This document shows, piece after piece, positions 1-35,928 of a stretch of DNA of 64,000 nucleotides (within the stretch, counting starts at the first letter, position 1; each line of letters opens with the position of its first letter). The DNA is from Byssovorax sp. (GTDB lineage Bacteria; Myxococcota_A; Polyangia; Polyangiales; Polyangiaceae), in contig JANYGI010000042.1 in assembly GCA_025362495.1 (NCBI GenBank), forward strand, positions 1 through 64,000. Direction: 5' to 3'. Below the pieces are notes generated by a model. The model did no database searches. It worked only from the letters and a program-made list of their open reading frames with translations, and was not told where the DNA came from. The position numbers and the translations under genes were made by a program.

Positions 1-2336
1 TCCCGCGTGAACGGCTTCGGCAGCAGCGCCCACACGTCTTCCATCAGGCCATCTTCGGCGAGATCGCGGTCGACGTAGCCCGACATGTACACCACGCGGA
101 CCGACGGGCGACGCGCGCACACCCGCTCTGCGAGCTGCTTGCCGGAGAGGCCGGGCATCACCAGATCGGTCACGAGCAAATCGATCGTGCCGGGGTGCTG
201 ATCGAGCAGCGCCAAGGCCTCGGTGCCGCTCCCGGCGGCGATGACGACATAGCCGGCGCCGACGAGCGTGCGGCGCGTCAGCTCGCGGACGGCGGGCTCG
301 TCCTCGGCGAGGAGCACTGTTTCGCGCCCCACCGGGTTCACGGATCGCCTTCGTTCGCCGGCGGCCGGCGCGCTCTCGTCCGTCGTCGGGAGCAGCATCC
401 GGAAGGTGGTGCCCTGGCCAGGATTGGACTCCACCGCGATGTGGCCACCCACCTGCTTGACGGTGCCATACGCCGTGGCGAGGCCGAGCCCCGTGCCCTT
501 GCCGCGCTCTTTCGTGGTGAAGAAGGGCTCGAAGACGCGTGAGGCGACCTCGGGCGACATGCCTCCTCCGGTATCGTGGACGGCGATGACACCGTAGCTC
601 CCGGCCGGCAGGCCGAGCGTCGAAGCGGCGGCAGCGTCGAGCTCGACGACCTCCGTCTCGATGCGCAGCGTGCCGCTGCCGGCCATGGCGTCGCGCGCGT
701 TGACGACGAGGTTGAGCAGCACCTGCTCGAGCCGCGCCCGGTCGGCCTTGACGCGGATCGCGCCCGGGGCGCTGGTCGTCTGGAGCACGATCGAGCCGCC
801 GATCGCGCGCTCGATCAGCCGGCGCATGTCGGCGACGAGCTCCCCGAGGTCGAACACCCGGAGCGTGATCAGCTCGCGGCGGCTGAACGCGAGGAGCTGC
901 TTGGTGAGCTCGGCGGCGCGGAGGGCGGCCTGCTTGACCTCGCCGACGTCGTCGAGCACATCGGGCTCGCTCACGCGCTCACCGATGAAATCCGCGTAGC
1001 TGAGGATCACGCCGAGGAGGTTGTTGAAGTCGTGGGCGACGCCGCCGGCGAGCTGCCCGATCAGGGCGAGGCGCTCTTGCTGGTTTTCGCGCGACTCGCG
1101 CTCGCGCTCCTCGGTGACCTCGTGGATCACGATCACGGTCTCGCTCTTCCGGGAGACCTCGCCGGTGGCGTGCGAGGCGCTGAGCGTGAAGATCCGCCGC
1201 GGCGCACCCGCGACGACGACGTCGCACGACGACGGCGCGCCGCGCGCGAGGAGGTTGTCGATCGGGACGCCGCCCAGCGACTCGATGACGTCGCCGCCGG
1301 AGGCCGTGCTCAGGTGCGGCAAGAGCTCGTTGGCGCGGCCGTTCGTCATGGCCAGGCGTCGCTCTTCGTCGAGCAGGATCACGCCGATGGGCAGCGCCTG
1401 GATCACCCGCTCGAGGCGCTGCCAGTCGTCGAGGGTGACGGCCTGGATCTGCTGCATCAGCGTGGCGTTCTTGATCGCCAGCGCGACCTGCCCCGTGACG
1501 GCCAGGAGAAGATCGAGGTCCTTCTCGGTGAACGACGCGTCGCCGATCTGGGAGTCGAGCTGCATCACGCCGAGGAGCTCGTCGCGGTGGAGGATCGGCA
1601 CGCACATCGCCGAGCGGAGCCGCAGCGCGTGGACGCTGGCAGAGCGGTTGAAGCGCGTGTCGCTGCCGGCGTCGGCGGTGACGACGCCGCTGCGCGTGGC
1701 CATGACCTCGCTCAGCATGCGCGTGGAGAGGGGGATCTTCACGTTCACGCCGGTGCGGAGGCGAGCGAGCTGCGCCGTCGGGCTGCCCGCGCCGTCGAGG
1801 AGGAGAATCGCCGCGCGCTCGGCCTGGAAGAGGCGGATCACGGTGTCGAGGATCCGCTCGAGGAAGAGCGCGGGATCGTGCTCGCCGCCGATGGCGCGCG
1901 TGACCTCGAGGGCGACGCGCAGCCGGTCGTACTCGCGCGCGAGATCGTCTTGCAGCGGGATGTCGGAGGCCGGCCGGAAGCTCGGCTCGCGCACCGAGAG
2001 GCGACGGAGCTGGAGCGAATCGGGCAGCGATCCCAGCGGATCGAGCACCTCGGACCCGGCCGAGAACCTGAGGCGCGCGCCGCCGATCAGGATCTCGTCG
2101 CCGTCGCGGAGCGCGACGTCCGTCACGCGCTTGCCGGCGACGATCGTCCCGTAGCGGCTGCCCAGATCGACGAGGCGGTACTCGACTTCACCGACGCGCC
2201 GCACCTCGGCGTGGCGCAGCGACACCATGGGATCGGCGACGTGGACGGCGCAGTCCGGGGCGCGGCCGATCGTCGTCGTCGGCCCGAGCTCGAACGTGCG
2301 GAACGAGTCGGCGCTGAGGTCCTGCAAGGTCGGCAT
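1..2336 (-). CDS. Hybrid sensor histidine kinase, FHA-GAF-PAS-HisKA-HATPase-REC (3' end cut by window)
   Basis: The 778 visible residues read, in order: an FHA domain (about 20-85, with GRAPDCAVH), a GAF domain (about 140-290), a PAS-like segment (about 305-410), HisKA with GGVAHDFNNLL and phospho-acceptor His435, a HATPase with DTGGGMSPE and GKGTGLGLAT, and a receiver domain with VTDLVMPG (Asp724) and the closing KPFT motif at the window edge. No transmembrane segment is visible, so it is probably a cytosolic kinase. By family knowledge it autophosphorylates on His435 and can pass phosphate to its own receiver. The FHA domain would bind phosphothreonine proteins, which suggests cross-talk with Ser/Thr kinases. 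The ATG at 2336 starts just before the FHA domain. The C-terminus lies outside the window, so further domains may follow. Confidence 0.93.
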   Translation of the reverse strand, partial: MPTLQDLSADSFRTFELGPTTTIGRAPDCAVHVADPMVSLRHAEVRRVGEVEYRLVDLGSRYGTIVAGKRVTDVALRDGDEILIGGARLRFSAGSEVLDPLGSLPDSLQLRRLSVREPSFRPASDIPLQDDLAREYDRLRVALEVTRAIGGEHDPALFLERILDTVIRLFQAERAAILLLDGAGSPTAQLARLRTGVNVKIPLSTRMLSEVMATRSGVVTADAGSDTRFNRSASVHALRLRSAMCVPILHRDELLGVMQLDSQIGDASFTEKDLDLLLAVTGQVALAIKNATLMQQIQAVTLDDWQRLERVIQALPIGVILLDEERRLAMTNGRANELLPHLSTASGGDVIESLGGVPIDNLLARGAPSSCDVVVAGAPRRIFTLSASHATGEVSRKSETVIVIHEVTEERERESRENQQERLALIGQLAGGVAHDFNNLLGVILSYADFIGERVSEPDVLDDVGEVKQAALRAAELTKQLLAFSRRELITLRVFDLGELVADMRRLIERAIGGSIVLQTTSAPGAIRVKADRARLEQVLLNLVVNARDAMAGSGTLRIETEVVELDAAAASTLGLPAGSYGVIAVHDTGGGMSPEVASRVFEPFFTTKERGKGTGLGLATAYGTVKQVGGHIAVESNPGQGTTFRMLLPTTDESAPAAGERRRSVNPVGRETVLLAEDEPAVRELTRRTLVGAGYVVIAAGSGTEALALLDQHPGTIDLLVTDLVMPGLSGKQLAERVCARRPSVRVVYMSGYVDRDLAEDGLMEDVWALLPKPFTR

Positions 2337-2459
2337 CAGGGCTGCCTTGCGGCGCTCACCGAGCTCGACAGTCGAAGTGTGTGACCGGACATTGGCACTG
2401 CGGGAGATAGTGCAACAGGTGAGCTGCCGCCACCACGTTGTTCGTCACAATCGGGCTGC

Positions 2460-3419
2460 TCAGTGCGCGAACTCGTCCATCAGCGTCGTCCCGTTGTGAA
2501 AGTGGCCAGGAGCCCCGCAGCTCGCCGACACCTTTGCAGCGAAGCACCCGGGAGGCGTGAGGCCGGAGACAGTGAGCCGGGTGAACCGGGCCTCGTTGGT
2601 GCAGCGCGCGCCGGTCGAGCTCCACTCGGCCTCGATGGTCCACGGCTCCGCGTCCGCCTGGATGCCTGCATTGTCATAGAGGTTGATCAGCGTCCCGTCG
2701 ACGGTGAACGAGCGCCCGTCGCCGCAGTAGTCGGCGCGGAGCAGGCGCGTGCACGCCACCAGACGCTCCGTGCTCGTCGCCGCCGAAGGCGCGCCGGACA
2801 CCGGCGGTCGGTAACCCATCTCGATGCACTTGGCGATCGCCTTGCCCCGGCAAGCGAACGTGATCTTCGACGCTTCGGCCGTGTATCCGCCGCCCCCGAC
2901 CACGCCCTGCGCGTAGCTCCAGACGCCGAGCATGGGAATCGCCGGGATCGGGTTCCCGCCCGCGTCGGCGCCGCAGAGCGGTGACCAGCCCGCGGTGGTC
3001 TGGTACGAGACGTAGTACGAGGTCAGATCGGCGTTCGGCGCCGGGACGGCGACGCTCCCGTCGATGCGCAGCGGGATCGTGCCGCCGTTCGTGAGCTGGC
3101 CGATCCAGGTCGTGCCCGTGAAGTCCCCGCCGGGCAGGCTCGCGCTCGTGAGCGTGGTGCCATTGACGCTGGTGCCGTTGACGCTGGTGCCATTGACGCT
3201 GGTGCCGTTGACGCTGGTGCCGTTGACGCTGGTGCCATTGACGCTGGTGCCATTGACGCTGGTGCCATTGACGCTGGTGCCATTGAGGCTGACCCCGTTG
3301 AAGCTGGTCATGGCCTCGGCCGACTCGTCCAGGTCGAGCTCTTCCTCATCCCCGGCGGCGCCCACGCAAGCGGCCTGAGAGAGCGCGAGAACGACGTAGC
3401 AAATTCCAAGCAGTCGCAT
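2460..3419 (-). CDS. ADYC-domain secreted protein/lipoprotein with NGTSV pentapeptide repeats
   Basis: This is a 319-residue protein. A hydrophobic signal peptide with a weak lipobox (Cys18 after QAA) is followed by an acidic stretch. Residues 41-90 are ten pentapeptides: NGVSL, eight identical NGTSV and NGTTL. The rest is a cysteine-containing globular region with the ADYCGDGRSFT motif near residue 233, the hallmark of the ADYC domain seen in myxobacterial exported proteins. It probably sits outside the inner membrane. The repeat resembles pentapeptide-repeat spacing but lacks the usual A(D/N)LXX pattern. Its molecular function is unknown. It stands alone, 123 bp upstream (in minus-strand terms) of the histidine kinase start and well separated from the kinase gene on its other side. 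Confidence 0.85.
   Translation of the reverse strand: MRLLGICYVVLALSQAACVGAAGDEEELDLDESAEAMTSFNGVSLNGTSVNGTSVNGTSVNGTSVNGTSVNGTSVNGTSVNGTSVNGTTLTSASLPGGDFTGTTWIGQLTNGGTIPLRIDGSVAVPAPNADLTSYYVSYQTTAGWSPLCGADAGGNPIPAIPMLGVWSYAQGVVGGGGYTAEASKITFACRGKAIAKCIEMGYRPPVSGAPSAATSTERLVACTRLLRADYCGDGRSFTVDGTLINLYDNAGIQADAEPWTIEAEWSSTGARCTNEARFTRLTVSGLTPPGCFAAKVSASCGAPGHFHNGTTLMDEFAH
3161..3280 (-). repeat. Eight 15-bp tandem repeats inside the ADYC gene
   Basis: Eight back-to-back 15-bp units (plus-strand unit TTGACGCTGGTGCC plus A or G) encode eight NGTSV pentapeptides. The units differ only at the third base of the Asn codon (AAT or AAC), and a diverged unit follows at 3281-3295. Near-identity at synonymous sites points to recent expansion or ongoing homogenisation by slippage. 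Confidence 0.95.
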
Positions 3420-3652: not shown

Positions 3653-6600
3653 TCAGCGGTGGAGGACCGTCGCGCAGAGCCGCAGGCCGACGCTCGTCTC
3701 GCGGTAGCTCTGCGGCGAGACGTTGCGGTTCGGGATCCGGTTCGACTTGCGATCGTAGAAGTAGCTGCCGCCGCGGACGAGGTACTCGTCGGGAGCGAGG
3801 GACGAGATCGTCCACTCGAAGATGTTGCCAGTCATGTCGTCGACGCCGAAGGGGCTGCGCGACGCGGGGTGAGAGCCGACCTCGTCCGGGCCCATGGCGT
3901 CTCGACCATAGGTCGAGTCGAAGCTCGCGTCGTCGAGGTCGAGGTGATTGCCGTGGGGGTACTCGCGCCCGTCGGCGCCCCTCGCGGCCTTGGACCACTC
4001 CTGCTCGGTGCAGAGCCGCGCCCCGACCACCCGCTTCGTCGCGTCGAGCCAGGCGGCGTAGGCGATCCCGTCGAGCGCCGAGACGCCGGAGACCGGCAAT
4101 CGACTCCAGTCCTGCGCCGCGCGGCGCGAGCGCCCCTCGAAGCGCAGCGGCTCCCCTTCCCGCGCCGTCGCGACGCGCATCGACGGCTGGATGGTGAGAC
4201 GCCAGGCGCCGTCGCGCTCCCGGGTCAGCGCCAGCACTCCCGCGCTCCCGACCTTGGCCGCCGCGCTCGGCGTGCGAATGGCTCGCTCCTCGGGCCCGAG
4301 GGCGCGGAGGTACTCGATCCATTGCGCATACGTGACCTCGTTGCGCTGGATGAGATACGGCCCGAGGCGGACCTCGTGGAGAGGCACGGTGTCGAAGAAG
4401 CCGGTGCGATTCTCCTCGTCCGCGCAGCCGAATTTGAAAGGCCCCTCCGGCACGTCCACGAACCCTGCGGGCACGTCGGAGCCCGGCGGGAGCGCCGCGC
4501 GAGCCTGGGCTGCCTCGCCGCGCTCGACGACCACCGGATACCGCACGTCCGCGCGCCCCGGGCTCGCGAGCACGACGAGGTACGATCCCTTCTCGAGCGC
4601 GAACTCCGCGACGGGCGTCGGCCCCAGCTCGCGCACCGGCACGAGCGCCAGGCGGCCCTCCGGCGCCGGATCGTAGCGCAGGAGCGAGGCCGCGGCGCCG
4701 GGCGGATCGGTCGTGATGGCGAGCCGCCCCGGCCGCGTCCAGCGCGCCGCCAGCGAGCCGTCGGGATCGTGGATCTTGAAGCGCTCGACCAGCTCGTCGC
4801 GCTCGTCGAGCTTCAGCGCCTGCTCGGCGCGGAGCGCGCGCTCGAACAGCACCTCGCCGAGGCGACCGCTGGCGTCGGCGCGCTCGGGATCCTTCGCGCA
4901 AGCGCTGTCGAGGAGCTGCGTGGCCCGGCGAAAGGCCCGATCGGCGGTCGCCTCGCTCTCCAGCGCGCGAGCCCACGCGACCTCGCCTCCGGGGCGGTCC
5001 TGGGCGTCGAACCGAAGGAAGGCCGCCGCGGAGTCGGACGCGGCGTCGGTGCGGGCGCGGCGAGCGACGTCGATGGCTATCTGGCTCTCGTCCATCAGCT
5101 GCGCGACGGCCTGGGCTCGCGCCCGCTCGTGCTTGATCTCGACGGCTCCGTAGCCGAGCGCGATCAGCAGCGGGACGGCCGCGATCCCCGTGCGGCGGAG
5201 CCATTTGCTGAGGGTCGTCGCCCGCCTCGACGCGGCGAGGAACGCGCTCTCGCCCTCGGTCAGATCGGCCGGCGCGACCCGCGTGATCTCGGCGAGCTGC
5301 CGCGCATTCCACAGGATCTCGGGCGCGCGGCGCAGCCGCTTCCACTCGGCCGCGGCGCTCGCGAGCCGCTCGCGTACCTCGCGGGACTCGGCGTCTTCCA
5401 CGAGCCAGCGACGCAGGGTCGTCCACCCGTGGAGCAAGACCTCGTGCGCCAGCTCGTACACGCTGCCGTCGTCGCCGTCCTGCGCGACGAGGAGGCGCCC
5501 GCGGACCAGCGCGGCGAGCGCCGAGCGCGCCGGCTCGACGTCGGCGCGGAGCTCGCCCTCGCCGCGGCGCGTCCGGGTGTTGTCGAGCGTCACGAGCCGC
5601 AGGAGCATGCGCCGCGCCTCGACGCGCAGGGGCGCGCGCATCGCGGCGAGGACCGCGTCGCCGTGCCGGGACAGCGCGCCCGCGACGCCGCCCATGGCCT
5701 CGAGCGTGGCCTCGCTGATCACGCCGGTGCCGGGGTTCCGCGCCTCCCACAGCTCGGCGAGCGCGAACTGCAGGAGCGGTAGGCCTCCCTCGGCGCGCGC
5801 GGTCGCGTCGACCAGCTTCTCGACCAGCGCCTCGGATTCGAAGCGCGCGTTCGTGGCCTGCGCGGGGCCGACGATGACCTCGCGCACGCGCTCCGGAGGG
5901 AGCGGCCGGAGAAAATAGAGCGCTGACTCGAGGCCTTCCCCGAGCGCAGGGAGCGTGGCGATGCGCGCGAGAAAATCGGCGCGCACCGTCGCGAGCACGC
6001 GCACCATCGCGACCTGCGCGATGAGGGCGCCGAGCGCGCCGTCGACGATCTCGGCCTCGTCGCGATCGCTGAGGGTGTGGAGCTCTTCGGCCTGATCGAT
6101 GAAGATCAGCAGCCCCGACGTCGCGGTCGCGTGGCGCCTGCCGATCTCGTGCGCGAGCGCGGAGCCGTCGCGATCGATCCACCCGGCGACGATCTCGGCC
6201 GCGACGCCGAGACTCTCGGAGAGGGCCGCCGCGAGCGCGGCGCGCGGCCGCTTGCCCGGCGTCAACGTGCACGTCGACCAGACGCGGCCGCCGCCGAGCC
6301 CGCCGTCGACGATCACCGGCAGCACGCCCGCGCGGCAAATCGAGGACTTTCCCACGCCCGAGTCGCCGGCGACCACCACGAAGGACTCGACGCGGAGGCG
6401 ATCGACGAGCAGAGAGACCTCGGCGCTGCGGCCAAAGAAGAGCGCGCGGTGCTGCACGTCGAAGGCGCGGAGCCCGCGGTACGGGTTGCCCTCGGGGAGC
6501 GCCGCGCCGCCCACGGTGCCCGAGAGGTGCTCCAGGGCCTGGCGCAGCTCGTCGCCGGAGGCGAACCGCTCGGCGGGCGCGCGGCGCAGGCATCGATCGA

Positions 6601-28909: not shown

Positions 28910-31108
<2,199 letters not shown>

Positions 31109-31244: not shown

Positions 31245-31928
31245 TCACAGGCGGCCCTGGCGGGCGCCCAGCGCGGCGCCGACGAGGGCCGAGACGACGA
31301 TCACGAGCCCATGGGCCACGAGGACGTGCGAGGCCGTCTCGACGACGCAGTGAGCGTGGATGCCAATCGCCCCGCCGAGGCCGCAGGCCGCGCCCACGAC
31401 GGCGCCGCGCCAGGCCGGAAACGAGAGGAACGAGCGGCGGAAGATCAGCGCGGCGACGGCGAGCGGCCCGAGCGCGAGGATGTGGGCCCACGTCAGGCAG
31501 CCGATGACGTTGCTCCAGTGGATCGGCACGTTCGGCGCAGTGACGTCGCGCACGAGGACGCCGGCGACGTACACCGAAGCGAGCGCGAGCAGGACGATCT
31601 GCACGACGCGCAGGCTCTGCGGGAGGCCGCGCGGGTTCGTCCGCAGCGCGAGCGCGAGGCCGCCGACCGTGAGCGCCGTCCACACGACGAGCGAGGCGAG
31701 CAGCCCCGCGTCGCCGATGTTGCCGCGCACGCCGAGGCGCCACACGAGGAAGACCACCCACGTCACGCCGAAGCCGCCGGCGATGAGGTTGCGTCGGCGC
31801 CGCTGATCGCGCGTGGGCGAGGCTCCATCCGGCGGGACCGGCGCAGGCGTGGGGCGGGTCGAGGCGCCGCCGATCGGATCGGGGATCGAGGCGAAATCGT
31901 CGAGCGAAAAGGGATCAGGAGCGGCCAT
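31245..31928 (-). CDS. nrsF: NrsF-like (DUF1109) six-helix anti-sigma factor
   Basis: The 227-residue product has a cytosolic N-terminal tail of about 45 residues (Pro/Asp-rich, then a basic cluster) and six hydrophobic helices between about 47 and 222. This layout and the HAHCVVETASHVLVAH segment match the DUF1109/NrsF family, membrane anti-sigma factors that hold ECF sigma factors and release them on stress. Cys144, Cys182 and Cys194 are present; Cys144 and Cys194 are 50 residues apart, the same spacing I recall for the two cysteines needed for signal sensing in Caulobacter NrsF. The ATG at 31928 overlaps the sigma gene by 14 bp, which supports co-translation. It is the last gene of the bufferin-like cluster. 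Confidence 0.82.
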   Translation of the reverse strand: MAAPDPFSLDDFASIPDPIGGASTRPTPAPVPPDGASPTRDQRRRRNLIAGGFGVTWVVFLVWRLGVRGNIGDAGLLASLVVWTALTVGGLALALRTNPRGLPQSLRVVQIVLLALASVYVAGVLVRDVTAPNVPIHWSNVIGCLTWAHILALGPLAVAALIFRRSFLSFPAWRGAVVGAACGLGGAIGIHAHCVVETASHVLVAHGLVIVVSALVGAALGARQGRL

Positions 31929-32526
31929 CGGCGCCTCCTTCGACCCGGCCACGGGCCCGGGCCGGCGCCTCGCGCTTGAGCTCTTCCAGCTCGGCGCGGA
32001 GGGCCTCGTAGGCGCGAAACGCGCGGAGCTTCACCGCCGTCGGCGTCGTACCGAGGATCGCCGCGGCGTCGATCACGCTGAGCCCCTCGTAGCGGATCAA
32101 CACGAAGGCGTCGCGCTGCGAGGCGGGGATCCGCGCGAGCACGCGCTCGACGGCGCGCGCCGCTTCGGCCGCGATCGCCGCGGATTCGGCGTCGACACCG
32201 CCGCGATCGACGGTCTCGGATCCGGGATCGCTCGGCAGCCGCTCGGTCGCGCGGAGCCTGGCCGCGCGCGCGTGATCGATGTGCACGTTGCGGGCGATGG
32301 CGTACGCCCAGGGGATCACCGCGCCGCCGGTCGCGAAGGTGGAGCGCGCGCGATGCATCCGCAGGAACGTCTCCTGGAGCAGATCGTCGGCGAGCACGGG
32401 GGAGCCGCTCATGCGCGTGAGGTAGGCGAGCAGCCGCGGGTGGAGCGCCTGGTGCAGCGCCGCGAAGGCCCGGGGATCGCCGCAGGCGTAGCGATCCATG
32501 GCAGCGTTGAGGAGCGACTCATCCAT
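31915..32526 (-). CDS. ECF-type RNA polymerase sigma factor (SigF-like)
   Basis: The 203-residue product has sigma region 2 at about 25-95 (LADDLLQETFLRMHRAR and PWAYAIARNVHIDHARA) and region 4 at about 135-185 with the helix-turn-helix LSVIDAAAILGTTPTAVKLR. No region 1 or 3 is present, so it is an ECF sigma factor. It directs RNA polymerase to a small regulon, and its neighbour NrsF should keep it silent. It overlaps nrsF by 14 bp and follows the DUF2063 gene after 76 bp. A related sigma factor in Caulobacter controls its own DUF692/DUF2063 operon; by analogy this one may switch on the modified-peptide genes upstream. The ATG at 32526 is the first good start. Confidence 0.9.
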   Translation of the reverse strand: MDESLLNAAMDRYACGDPRAFAALHQALHPRLLAYLTRMSGSPVLADDLLQETFLRMHRARSTFATGGAVIPWAYAIARNVHIDHARAARLRATERLPSDPGSETVDRGGVDAESAAIAAEAARAVERVLARIPASQRDAFVLIRYEGLSVIDAAAILGTTPTAVKLRAFRAYEALRAELEELKREAPARARGRVEGGADGRS

Positions 32527-32602
32527 GGTGGGGTGCGCGAGCGCGGCGACGTTAGCACCTCCGCGCGTCCCGGGTGGAGCTTCGCGGTAGCCGGCCTCGG
32601 GC

Positions 32603-33421
32603 TCATGACGCGCCCCCGAGGAGAGCGCCGCGCTGCGCGAGATCGTCGAGGAGCCGCGCCGTGCCCGCGAGCACCTCGGGGCCGAGCGCCTCGCCGCGCG
32701 CAGACGCGGCGCCGACGACGGCGGAGCGCAGCGTCTCGCCGAGCAGCAAACGATCGAGGATCGCCGCCGCGAGCGGGGTGAGCTCGAGGTAGCGCACCTC
32801 GTGATCGGCGTCGCGGTACGCGAGGAGCGCCGTCGGCTCGCGCGCGGGCACGTCGCGCGCGGCCTCGTCGGCGAGGAGCCGGTGCACGGCGTGGTCGTGG
32901 CGCGCGAGCCGCACCGACGCGTGAAAGCGCGCGGTGGTGTCGAGCTCGAGTTCGATCCCCGTCGGCCCGCGATCGTCGTCGGCGCTCCCGACGTCGAACG
33001 CGGTGAGCTCGTGACGCGCGAGATCGCCGAGATAATCCGGCACTTCCGGATCGGTCGCCCACCGCGGCGCCGCCCACGCCACGAGCTCGAAGGCCACGTC
33101 GCGGAGGTAGTGCGAGCGCGGGGCCTCCTCGTCGACGAAGCGCTCGACCCACGCTTCGAAGGCAGGTCCGAGGCGCGCTGCCGTGCGCGGGATCTCGAGG
33201 CGGATCGCCGCCGTGAGCCCGCGACGCACCAGCTTGCGGTACACGAGCAGGCGCCTCTCGCCCTGCGTCGCGAGGCTCGCCGCGTCGCCCGCACCGAGGC
33301 CGCCTTCGATGAAAAAAGCCTTTGAATCGGCCGCGATCCGCGCCTCGACGTCGGGCGCGCGCACCAGGCTGGCGACCGCGCCGAGCAGCGCAGGGAAGCG
33401 GGTCGCGTCGTCGGCGTTCAC
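32603..33421 (-). CDS. bufC: DUF2063 / HvfC-BufC-family partner of MNIO enzyme
   Basis: The 272-residue product starts with GTG in a GTGA overlap with the DUF692 stop, so the two subunits are translationally coupled. The N-terminal third ([52 protein letters not shown]) matches the HvfC/BufC N-terminal domain (DUF2063); the middle ([20 protein letters not shown]) and the C-terminal [13 protein letters not shown] segment match the winged-helix-like peptide-recognition part. In characterised systems this protein forms a complex with the MNIO enzyme and presents the precursor peptide to it. No catalytic residues are expected. It occurs here directly after the enzyme and before the sigma factor. 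Confidence 0.88.
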
Positions 33422-34290
33422 GCGTCGCCTCGCGCGAAGCGAGCGTGCGCCGCGAGCCCGCGCGCGTACGCGGCCTCGACGCGGCCGAGCTCGATCAGCA
33501 GCTCGGGCAGCGGCGGGATCCGGTGATCGCGCTCGAGCACCACCGGCAGCGGACCCGTCCGCTCGATCACCCACGCGCAGAGATCGAGCACCGGATCGAT
33601 CATGTCCGCGCCGTGCGTGTCGATGACGAGGCCGTGCTCCTCGCTCCGATCGTGCCCCGCGACGTGGAGCTGGACGACGCGATCGAGCGGCAATCGTCGG
33701 AGAAATTCGAGCGCGTCGAAGCCATCGTTGACGGCGTTGACCCAGACGTTGTTGACGTCGAGCAAGAGCTTCGCCGAGCTTCGATCGAGCACCTCCGCGA
33801 CGTAGTCCGCCTCGTCCATCGACCGCTCCCCGGGCACGAAATAGCGCGTGATGTTCTCGATCGCCACGGGCACGCCCAGGAGATCCTGAGCCTCGCGAAT
33901 GCGCGCCGCGACGTGGATGGCCGACGCCTGCGTCAGCGGCAGCGGCAACAGATCGTGGAGCATGCGCCCGCCCGCGCCCGAGAAGCACAGGTGATCCGAG
34001 TGAAACGGGCTCTTCGATCGCTCGACGAAGCGACGGAGCTCGGCCATGTAGGCGCGGTCGAAGGGATCGAGCCCGCCGATCGAGAGCGTGAGCCCGTGCG
34101 TAAGGAACCGATAGTGCTCGGCCACCCGCTCCACCGCGGCGGGGACGTGCCCGCCGCGGCGCATGTGGTTCTCCGGAGAGACCTCGAAGAAGGCGACGCC
34201 GGGGAGCCGCGTCCCCGCGGCGATCGCGTCCACCACATCATCGAGGAAGGCGAAGCGCAGCCCCAGCCCGACACCGTCGATGCTCGACAT
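33418..34290 (-). CDS. bufB: DUF692 multinuclear non-heme iron oxidative enzyme (MNIO; HvfB/BufB-like)
   Basis: The 290-residue TIM-barrel protein starts GVGLGLRF and has the metal-ligand motifs of DUF692: SPEN (38-41), HSDH (97-100), IEN (144-146), DVNN (178-181), LHVAGH (208-213), DTH (224-226) and ERDH (253-256). These bind two or three iron ions; the family oxidises cysteine residues of ribosomal peptides, for example to oxazolone/thioamide groups that bind copper. The natural substrate is almost certainly the small protein encoded 75 bp upstream. The ATG at 34290 has a GGAGGA site four bases away; a longer start at 34338 is possible but lacks one. It overlaps the DUF2063 gene by 4 bp. 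Confidence 0.92.
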
Positions 34291-34365
34291 AGCGTCCTCC
34301 ACGGGGCTCGCCGGGGAGCGGGGCCAATCGCGGCCCATCACGCTCCCCTTCTGCTGGGCCGCCTG

Positions 34366-34725
34366 TCAGCCGCAGGTGCCTTCGCCGCAGCTGCCGTTCG
34401 CGCCGGTCTTCTTCGCGTCGGTCTTCTTGCCGGTCTTCTTCGCCGGCGCGGCGCCCGCGGCGGGCTTCGCCGAGGTCGCGCCGGCGGGCATCGCCGCAGC
34501 AGCCTTGGCGTCGGCCGGGGCCTTCGCGGCGTCCATCGTCGCGGCGGCGGCGGCGTCGCCCGTCTTGCCCTCGGTCGGAGCGGCGGCCGCCTTCGCATCG
34601 GCCGGCTTGGCCTCGGCGGCGGCCGGGATCTCGGCGGCGTTTACGGGAGCGGGGGACGCGCCGCAGCCCGTGAGCAGAACAGCGCCGGCGCCGAGGACGG
34701 CAAGGGTTTCGTAGAGGCTCTTCAT
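34366..34725 (-). CDS. bufA: Bufferin-like MNIO precursor peptide with lipobox and C-terminal CGEGTCG
   Basis: The 119-residue product has a signal peptide of about 20 residues ending in a lipobox (LLTGC, Cys21). Then come about 90 residues rich in Ala, Lys, Pro, Thr and Asp with no Cys, and a C-terminal core GSCGEGTCG with Cys113 and Cys118. The core resembles the repeated EGKCG motifs of HvfA/bufferin precursors, whose cysteines are modified by DUF692 enzymes, and the DUF692/DUF2063 genes follow immediately. It would be an exported, possibly lipid-anchored, modified peptide that binds copper or a similar metal. The ATG at 34725 has an ideal AGGAGA site (34734-34739, eight-base spacer). Unlike known precursors it has one core motif and a true-looking lipobox. 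Confidence 0.85.
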   Translation of the reverse strand: MKSLYETLAVLGAGAVLLTGCGASPAPVNAAEIPAAAEAKPADAKAAAAPTEGKTGDAAAAATMDAAKAPADAKAAAAMPAGATSAKPAAGAAPAKKTGKKTDAKKTGANGSCGEGTCG

Positions 34726-34763: not shown

Positions 34764-34788
34764 TACGCGCGAGATCGAGTCTGGTTTC
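34764..34788 (-). promoter_or_regulatory. Candidate ECF-sigma promoter before bufA
   Basis: On the minus strand GAAACC (34788-34783) is followed after 15 bases by CGTA (34767-34764), a layout close to ECF-type promoters, whose -35 element is usually GGAAC- or GTAACC-like. Transcription would begin near 34757, giving a leader of about 30 bases with the AGGAGA ribosome site. It sits downstream of two hairpins, which fits a separate start for the buf genes. This is a visual match only. Confidence 0.3.
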
Positions 34789-34802: not shown

Positions 34803-34843
34803 GCGTCTCGAAAGAGACGTACGAGCCGCTCGGAGCGGCTCGT
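34803..34843 (-). terminator. Two tandem hairpins between yceI-like gene and bufA
   Basis: A 10-bp perfect stem with a 3-base loop (34821-34830 / 34834-34843) is followed on the minus strand by a 6-bp stem closed by a four-base loop (34804-34809 / 34814-34819), extended by a G-U pair. They begin six bases after the YceI-like stop codon. There is no T-run, so they may be a factor-dependent or leaky terminator, or an mRNA-stabilising element. Confidence 0.55.
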
Positions 34844-34848
34844 GGCAA

Positions 34849-35682
34849 TCACGGCGCGGCCTTGGCGGTAAAATCGACCGAGACCAGCGCCTCCTTGTTG
34901 ACCTTCGGCGAGAGCACGTCGAGGCCCTTCGCGGCGAAGCGACCGAAGGCGTCGCGCGGCTTCACGTCGAACTCCGCGAGATCGATCGGGATCGGCTTCG
35001 TCGTCTTCACGGCGACGCTGCTGATCTTGTCGCCGTCGACCTTGAACGTGGCCTCGAGCTCCACCGTCTTGTCGGCCTTGTGGCCGTGCAGGAGGAACTC
35101 GCCCTTGGCCGTGAGCATCACCTTGCGCTCGGCCCCGGGGATCTTCATCAGGTTCTTCTCGCCCGCGACGTCGATCGACTTGATCGAGAACTGGACCTTG
35201 GCGTTCTCGACGCGCTTGTCCGCGGGCGCGTCGTCCGAGATCTCGAGCCAGGTGCGGGCGTGCTTGTTCTGAAGCTCCGACTTGGTTTCCTCGGGGAACT
35301 TCCCGTCGGCGCCGGCGGCCACCGCCTGGAAGACCTCGAGGCCGCTGATGTCGATCGTGATGAGGCCGGTCGACTTCGACAGGTCCATCGGATCGACGTT
35401 GAGATCACCCGTGGTCGAGTCGGAGGCCTTGCCGTGGATCTTCTCCTTCGGCGCTTCCATCATGAAGTCGATCTTGCTCGGCGCCTTCTGGATCGCGAGC
35501 TTGACGGCCCCCATCGCGGCGGGCTTCGCCGGCGCGAGCGCCGAGGCCGTCGGCGCGATCACCACCGCGGGCGGCGCGGGCTTGTCGTCGCAGCCGACGG
35601 CCCCGAAGAGCCCCACCCCGAGCGTGGCCAGCGCGAACAACCGCGCCACGTCACTCAACGGATCCCTGTTCTTACGATTCAT
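34849..35682 (-). CDS. YceI-like domain lipoprotein
   Basis: The 277-residue product has a basic N-terminus, a signal peptide with lipobox GAVGCDDKP (Cys31) and an Ala/Pro linker. From about 60 it shows a YceI-type lipocalin-like domain: SKIDFMMEAP, HGKASDSTTGDLNVDP, the LITIDISGLEVF strand and FLLHGHKADKTVELEAT near residue 200. YceI proteins bind isoprenoid-like or other amphipathic molecules in the periplasm. A strong AGGAGA site lies ten bases before the ATG. It is co-oriented with, and 123 bp upstream of, the bufferin-like precursor, with two hairpins between, so membership in the same regulon is possible but not shown. Confidence 0.82.
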   Translation of the reverse strand: MNRKNRDPLSDVARLFALATLGVGLFGAVGCDDKPAPPAVVIAPTASALAPAKPAAMGAVKLAIQKAPSKIDFMMEAPKEKIHGKASDSTTGDLNVDPMDLSKSTGLITIDISGLEVFQAVAAGADGKFPEETKSELQNKHARTWLEISDDAPADKRVENAKVQFSIKSIDVAGEKNLMKIPGAERKVMLTAKGEFLLHGHKADKTVELEATFKVDGDKISSVAVKTTKPIPIDLAEFDVKPRDAFGRFAAKGLDVLSPKVNKEALVSVDFTAKAAP

Positions 35683-35928
35683 GTTCCAGGTGTCTCCTGT
35701 GCACCGGGGCTCTGACCCCGGATCGCCGTGCGCGGCAGAACGATACGCCGAGCCGGCTCGCCGGATCCACTACTGCCCAGCCCGCCGCCGGTTTCGCCGC
35801 TTCGCACCGGACCGGCAGATCCGCCCGGATCGTGCCCTCCCTGCACACCCGGGCTGGCCCACGGGATGCACCGCCGCCGCTCGCGTCGAACGAAATACCG
35901 GCATGGCGCCCGGCCGACGGAGGACTCG

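Follow-up and report, generated by a model that had tools for sequence, protein, structure and literature searches.

Two questions meet in one operon of Byssovorax sp.: why are some MNIO-modified peptides anchored in the membrane, and which signal does a SigF-NrsF pair sense? The operon lies in a stretch of 64,000 nt (assembly GCA_025362495.1, contig JANYGI010000042.1, positions 1 to 64,000 of the forward strand), hereafter the window, and runs from a putative peptide precursor through an MNIO enzyme and its DUF2063 partner to an ECF sigma factor and an NrsF anti-sigma factor. Our analysis suggests that this is probably a stress-induced operon under sigma-F/NrsF control, making a membrane-tethered, MNIO-modified, metal-binding lipoprotein. 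The locus is real and is well conserved in related genomes of its order. Of the parts of this reading, the regulation has the firmest support; a role in copper handling is suggested by analogy with known systems.

The lipoprotein precursor and its MNIO enzyme

The operon consists of the following genes.

34366..34725, minus strand: precursor (119 residues), a lipoprotein with MKSLYETLAVLGAGAVLLTG^C (lipobox called by pattern), an Ala/Pro/Lys-rich spacer and the C-terminal core SCGEGTCG
33418..34290, minus strand: MNIO enzyme, HvfB/BufB-like (PF05114, 1.8e-87; HvfB 276.6 bits, cut-off 360; BufB 261.8 bits, cut-off 310)
32603..33421, minus strand: DUF2063/HvfC-type partner (NGO1945_C, 9.9e-13; DUF2063, 8.1e-8; HvfC model 86.6 bits, cut-off 142)
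31915..32526, minus strand: ECF sigma factor, SigF/ECF16-like by its partner and box, not by a model (Sigma70_r2, 2.1e-15; r4_2, 4.7e-11)
31245..31928, minus strand: NrsF anti-sigma factor (PF06532, 1.3e-10, 41.9 bits, cut-off 26.8), with six hydrophobic segments and the cysteines C144 and C194

A preliminary description of this DNA had placed these five genes on one strand in this order, with overlaps of 4 bp (MNIO and DUF2063) and 14 bp (ECF and NrsF). The coordinates bear this out, and profile searches (PF05114, DUF2063, Sigma70 and PF06532) confirmed the domains that it had named DUF692/MNIO, DUF2063, ECF and DUF1109/NrsF, DUF1109 being the older name of the NrsF family PF06532. It had also called the locus complete, which proved premature: the lipobox of the precursor, a YceI gene upstream, a kinase-FGE gene downstream and a promoter box at 34764–34788 were all missing from that account. 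In NCBIfam, the models closest to the MNIO enzyme are HvfB and BufB and that closest to the partner is HvfC, all scoring under the curated cut-offs.

The window precursor carries the lipobox LLTG^C and a mature part of 99 residues, rich in Ala, Pro and Lys, that ends in SCGEGTCG. It had been described as bufferin/HvfABC-like; Pfam (searched to E 1) and NCBIfam (searched to E 10) gave only chance-level matches and no relevant family, bufferin and HvfA models included, and it is better described as a CxxxxC-type lipoprotein. Two narrower labels were ruled out: bufferin (Buf1/Buf2), as neither DUF2282 nor BufA2 matched, and HvfA/oxazolin, as the KCGExKCG repeat model NF050137 remained unmatched over the same range.

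To follow the precursor among relatives, we used 61 loci from the same order, namely the window and 60 relatives; the latter are ranks 2–63 of an order-wide MNIO search without G108:C723 and G082:C97, genome G121 contributing two. That search gave an MNIO match in 158 of 183 genomes, the own genome counted. One of the two findings that would have refuted the preliminary description, a precursor without homologues beside DUF692 genes, did not occur: an open reading frame with a lipobox and a C-terminal cysteine motif precedes the MNIO gene in 55 of the 61 loci, window included. Because the filter itself required the cysteine motif, antisense and downstream stretches served as controls, and such frames occurred in 54/58 sense upstream stretches against 1/58 antisense and 0/53 downstream stretches (49, 0 and 0 when the motif was the strict one). 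Of the six loci in which the pattern gave no precursor, L034 and L041 are truncated at contig ends, L060 and L092 have one by eye, and in L067 and L078 none was seen.

CxxxxC lies near the C-terminus in all 55 extracted precursors, partly by construction of the filter, and the strict form CG[EAQ]G[TS]C[GAS] in 50. The core has a mean pairwise identity of 0.71 over eight positions (0.62 excluding the two filter-defining cysteines), and the spacer 0.19, the same as its shuffle. Mature lengths range from 93 to 198 residues. Only two cysteines besides that of the lipobox are present in 28 of the 55, the others adding repeats, and the core can be read as two adjacent xGxCG pentads, which would give the CxxxxC spacing. 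A comparison of leader conservation with YceI signal peptides (0.20 for the precursor versus 0.127) had only six paired loci and was not used as evidence. A tie between the class and oxazolins comes from L056, whose precursor has three EGKCG repeats as well as the terminal CGEGTCG. It is one of three precursors, with those of L050 and L047, in which the CGxGTC pair at the end is accompanied by several EGKCG or EGSCG repeats. The precursors of L052 (G093:C3) and L057 (G121:C19) are identical in different genomes, through recent transfer or a mis-binned contig, and so are not independent.

The enzyme keeps the metal-ligand positions expected of its family, and the other refuting condition, their loss in an alignment, did not arise either: H65, D99, H100, E145, D178, N180, N181, H209, D224, H226, E253 and D255 are each conserved in at least 95% of the 61 aligned MNIO sequences, and by family resemblance would include the iron ligands. 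The closest solved structure is 3bww (1e-46), a diiron-containing HvfB homologue (PMC13419390). Aligned through 3bww, D224/H226 and the asparagine of the DVNN motif appear to correspond to N175, D242 and H244 of HvfB site 3 (PMC13419390). The DUF2063 gene lies on the same strand in 50 of 57 relatives with enough sequence and on the opposite strand in seven (L063, L068, L081, L087, L088, L089 and L091); in these seven it converges on the MNIO gene, and yceI, precursor and MNIO stay together.

A candidate promoter box and the ECF-NrsF regulators

Upstream of the precursor lies a candidate promoter element, of which a near-copy stands before yceI.

34764..34788, minus strand: sigma-F-like box GAAACC-N15-CGTA, 38 bp before the precursor start
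35771..35795, minus strand: one-mismatch copy of the box (CGTA to AGTA), 113 bp before yceI

Among the 55 loci with a precursor, 21 have an exact box GAAACC-N15/16-CGTA within 200 bp of it; dinucleotide-preserving shuffles averaged 0.017, with no more than 1 in any of 300 rounds. The 61 loci (12 kb for the window) hold 38 exact boxes on both strands, of which 21 are near the precursor, 15 before YceI and two elsewhere. The 15 YceI-side boxes lie 873–1246 bp before the precursor and precede the first YceI base in the alignment by 28–295 bp. A sigma-70 promoter reading was dropped, as none was found in the region.

The window ECF gene has no box within 300 bp before it and would share that of the precursor. 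The preliminary description had treated the sigma factor as the locus's own, but an ECF-NrsF pair lies in only 4/61 loci (L039, L040, L044 and the window, some loci being cut by contig ends); it is thus ruled out as a core part, YceI and the kinase-FGE gene being commoner companions. The pairs within loci appear to form a single lineage, because the ECF proteins of these relatives are 74–80% identical to that of the window, whereas 28 from other NrsF loci reach 34–50%. These 28 loci of other genomes are those longer than 3000 bases among 30, and at least two (L156 and L162) adjoin another MNIO gene by coordinates. In 10 of the 28 an exact box stands directly before the ECF gene itself, and control of the loci without a nearby ECF-NrsF pair therefore probably acts in trans. 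Box and NrsF coincide across genomes: in a table of 53 loci, 31 have both, one the box only, 10 NrsF only and 11 neither (Fisher 4e-5), eight of the 61 being left out for a start that was not found or less than 1300 bp of upstream sequence.

The NrsF protein, the only NrsF match found in its genome, is a candidate point of signal entry. Its C144 column holds cysteine in 22 of 26 aligned rows and a gap in four, and its C194 column cysteine in 23, arginine in one and a gap in two. Caulobacter NrsF has its cysteines C131 and C181 at the same distance of 50 residues, and replacing these raises expression of the regulon (PMC3511200). The SigF-NrsF parallel drawn in the preliminary description thus holds, and gains from both the box and the cysteine spacing.

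Genome-wide, exact boxes outnumber a reversed control in the own genome (10 versus 2) and in G163 (17 versus 1). Behind the boxes of the own genome stand the precursor, a second kinase-FGE gene, YtkA, a PMSR-domain (MsrA) protein that carries a lipobox, a secretin, a redoxin-NHL protein and DUF1223, as well as a cytochrome P460 match exactly at the cut-off, one family-less protein and one short, doubtful frame. At L178, L179, L182, L183 and L184, genes for YtkA, PMSR (MsrA), redoxin-NHL, DUF1223 and a cytochrome P460-like protein directly follow exact boxes, a set that looks like envelope thiol and methionine repair. For the 80 boxes of G129, G145, G148 and G163, the genes behind were examined at 22 loci in three genomes, and many had no convincing gene; in G148 one box precedes an Oxidored_molyb protein, and in Minicystis a box precedes the precursor of a second MNIO locus. 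The own genome also has a second MNIO operon (L001, G000:C139), with a precursor at about 1032–1325, MNIO at 1459–2322 and DUF2063 at 2282–3139; its precursor is a lipoprotein-like CKGK-repeat protein (BufA2 28.2 bits, cut-off 60) with a one-mismatch sigma-F box upstream. The candidate box may allow the sigma-F regulon to be read from sequence where the ECF-NrsF pair lies elsewhere.

Taken together, these features suggest the following course of events. The two conserved cysteines of NrsF would be disturbed by a metal that reacts with thiols, for example Cu(I), or by some other stress that oxidises thiols, and NrsF would then release the ECF sigma factor. This factor would transcribe the operon from the GAAACC-N15-CGTA box before the precursor, and from that before yceI as well in many relatives; because the ECF gene of the window sits behind the precursor under its box, a positive feedback loop would result. 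In the cytoplasm, the MNIO enzyme and the DUF2063 protein would oxidise one or both cysteines of SCGEGTCG, with an expected loss of 4 Da each, to a thiooxazole or an oxazolone-thioamide. The lipoprotein pathway would export, lipidate and anchor the peptide, whose long spacer may keep a metal site of two cysteines at a distance from the membrane, so that the metal is buffered there. The use of the box by the window ECF factor, the modification and the metal are all predicted from sequence comparison.

An alternative that we regard as unlikely keeps the regulation and changes the trigger: reactive chlorine or oxidative damage to envelope thiols and methionines, not copper, would induce the operon, and the cysteine pair, modified or unmodified, would be a sacrificial or redox-active tether. 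HOCl does trigger a Brucella system of the ECF16/NrsF type, and ECF16 regulons repeatedly include Msr genes (PMC8315932); the own-genome boxes before the lipobox-bearing PMSR (MsrA) protein, redoxin-NHL and YtkA, and that before Oxidored_molyb in G148, fit the same picture. However, bufferins and oxazolins, made with this type of partner, are described as copper-binding (PMC12452194, PMC12636315), and a Caulobacter sigF mutant shows copper sensitivity; the SigF regulon there, which comprises two MNIO clusters and an MsrPQ-like pair, is induced by copper (PMC8224329). Copper and oxidative inputs may both be real.

Companion genes and the weighing of the evidence

The operon is flanked by two companion genes on its own strand, with a hairpin in the gap upstream.

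34849..35682, minus strand: YceI-domain protein with a lipobox, upstream companion (PF04264, 7e-6)
28910..31108, minus strand: Ser/Thr kinase with an FGE-like outer domain, one strong hydrophobic segment (399–417) and no FGE active-site cysteines
34821..34843, minus strand: terminator-like hairpin between yceI and the precursor, weak because five such sites were found in the region against 2.9 expected

In the 60 relatives, companions were sought by tblastn with the window proteins (kinase threshold above 45% identity). YceI lies upstream on the same strand in 32 of 57 relatives with enough sequence, and the kinase downstream on the same strand in 27 of 54, 26 of these with the FGE part. The own genome has four other YceI matches and 55 FGE matches, so chance adjacency would be rare; the counts themselves are inflated by relatedness of the genomes.

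The window kinase keeps the motifs VAIK, HRDIKPAN and DFG. Its FGE-like domain aligns with human FGE and has no cysteines in the active-site segment. In FGE, the active-site cysteines have a catalytic and copper-binding role. They are absent as well from the domain in all 26 relatives in which it can be read (two of 28 are cut), and a catalytic FGE was accordingly ruled out. Several related arrangements were noted: in L084 the kinase-FGE gene lies upstream, and the Sorangium-type loci L041–L044 have a lactonase/beta-propeller-like lipoprotein (by eye) after DUF2063 or NrsF, which in L043 stands just before the kinase. A further FGE-sulfatase domain lies at 3677–4465 of the window (minus strand) within a long open frame. 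Another kinase-FGE gene (L176, G000:C15:3906 onwards), at a contig position compatible with that of the genome's top FGE match, has an exact GAAACC-N16-CGTA box upstream.

These companions raise a second alternative, which we consider distinctly improbable, in which the modified lipoprotein is mainly a signal: its free or metal-bound form would be sensed by the FGE-like outer domain of the kinase, passing the metal state of the envelope to the cytoplasm. The intact kinase motifs with a single strong hydrophobic segment, the constant lack of active-site cysteines in the outer domain, the linkage to the MNIO operon despite the many FGE matches elsewhere in the genome, and the exact box before the second own-genome kinase-FGE gene are all consistent with it. 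The case nevertheless depends on linkage, half of the relatives have no kinase beside the locus, and both a metal site in the FGE-like domain and a kinase–lipoprotein interaction are hypothetical. There is an outside chance that a eukaryote-like kinase uses an MNIO-modified, lipid-anchored Cys-pair peptide as its sensor outside the cell: the peptide would bind metal in the periplasm and be read by an FGE-like domain that is probably catalytically dead. In Polyangium and Minicystis, and in relatives of both, envelope metal would then be answered by two branches, ECF/NrsF transcription and kinase phosphorylation. That the small protein is an ordinary metal-binding or structural lipoprotein, a chance neighbour of the MNIO gene and not its substrate, is very improbable: no known precursor model matches it and it is known here from sequence alone, but it recurs before the MNIO gene in 55 of the 61 loci with its Cys-pair motif conserved and its spacer not, and L056 combines canonical EGKCG repeats with the same terminus.

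Several observations weigh against the reading of the operon as a stress-induced source of a metal-binding lipoprotein. The locus is known here from its genes alone. When one locus per genus is taken, the association of box and NrsF has a median p of 0.054 and is therefore only suggestive, and in 10/53 loci the genome has NrsF without an exact box within 1300 bp; one-mismatch boxes occur in six of these ten (L042, L052, L058, L062, L072 and L076), such near-matches being commoner by chance. The reversed control is as frequent as the box or more so in G129 (21 versus 10) and G145 (43 versus 41), and in G148 the box is only slightly ahead (12 versus 8). YceI is absent beside the locus in 25/57 relatives and the kinase in 27/54. 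A scan of named organisms with the MNIO protein gave 52 loci, of which 51 were used, one being a short, chance-like match in Hymenobacter; many are the same records as the loci of the relatives. Here the precursor passed the loose filter in 41 and the strict one in 29, YceI was found in 16/47 and the kinase in 16/45, and two loci had an ECF gene within them. The strict core is present in Polyangium, Sorangium, Minicystis and Labilithrix records and in Polyangiaceae/Myxococcales bins; Nannocystis loci have repeat-type precursor candidates or none, and no precursor was found in the Plesiocystis or Enhygromyxa loci, though related MNIO genes are present. Lastly, DoxX was not seen among eight neighbouring window genes and frames scanned, three of which have no family match. 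In L104, L107, L112, L114, L118 and L143 (Nannocystis and related), a close MNIO accompanies a candidate Cys precursor of the repeat type that lacks the CGxGTC pair at its end.

Relation to known MNIO and SigF-NrsF systems

The design extends a known kind, since lipidated MNIO precursors, with a CxxxxC class among them, were reported in 2025. A preprint of November 2025 (PMC12636315) describes lipidated MNIO precursors, among them an uncharacterised cluster of CxxxxC lipoproteins ('Cluster X'), and NedA, a lipidated EGKCG precursor that is tri-acylated and loses 12 Da over three motifs. Our precursors share with Cluster X and NedABC the association with MNIO, the lipobox and the conserved CxxxxC, NedA being both lipidated and modified; they differ in that Cluster X was left uncharacterised there and that neither kinase nor YceI is mentioned in that paper. 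Antoine et al. 2025 (PMC12452194) distinguish the precursor types Buf1, Buf2, Buf_EGKCG and CxxxxC, with sigma/NrsF genes in Buf1 and not in Buf2 clusters. Their CxxxxC family has the signal peptide, CxxxxC, MNIO and DUF2063 in common with the window, but is described as having DoxX as a core gene and Lactamase_B_2 in 54% of clusters; neither was among the tested window neighbours, Lactamase_B_2 being unseen in the window genes tested. Cluster X or the published CxxxxC list may already include some of these precursors.

The resemblance to Buf_EGKCG/oxazolin (HvfABC) systems lies in HvfB as the top NCBIfam model for the MNIO enzyme, a core like one xCGExxCG unit, and a partner below the HvfC cut-off; the window precursor differs in lacking repeats, in Ser/Thr replacing Lys and in leaving the HvfA model unmatched. 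YceI, kinase, Myxococc and Polyangi are not mentioned in the main text of PMC12452194, nor lipoprotein, YceI and kinase in PMC13097082, nor RiPP (ribosomally synthesised and post-translationally modified peptide) in PMC12766979 on conserved myxobacterial clusters, and no title on this gene combination appeared among the open-access matches listed. The kinase and YceI, unmentioned in PMC12452194, PMC12636315 and PMC13097082, are concrete and testable additions to MNIO clusters, and with this locus the MNIO metallopeptides would come to include a minimal precursor of two pentads, anchored by lipid and shared by many Polyangium and Sorangium relatives.

Among regulatory systems, the closest counterpart is Caulobacter SigF-NrsF, whose regulon, as far as described in PMC8224329, the box-led gene set here resembles. 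The two share NrsF cysteines at equal spacing and MNIO operons behind a box, with, in one relative, an Oxidored_molyb-family molybdoenzyme behind a box as well; the Caulobacter sigma-F box GTAACC-N16-CGAA (PMC3511200) differs from GAAACC-N15/16-CGTA by one base in each half. Where the Caulobacter operons have DUF2282 precursors and, in one of them, DoxX, the operon of the window and its relatives has a lipoprotein precursor, YceI and a kinase-FGE protein.

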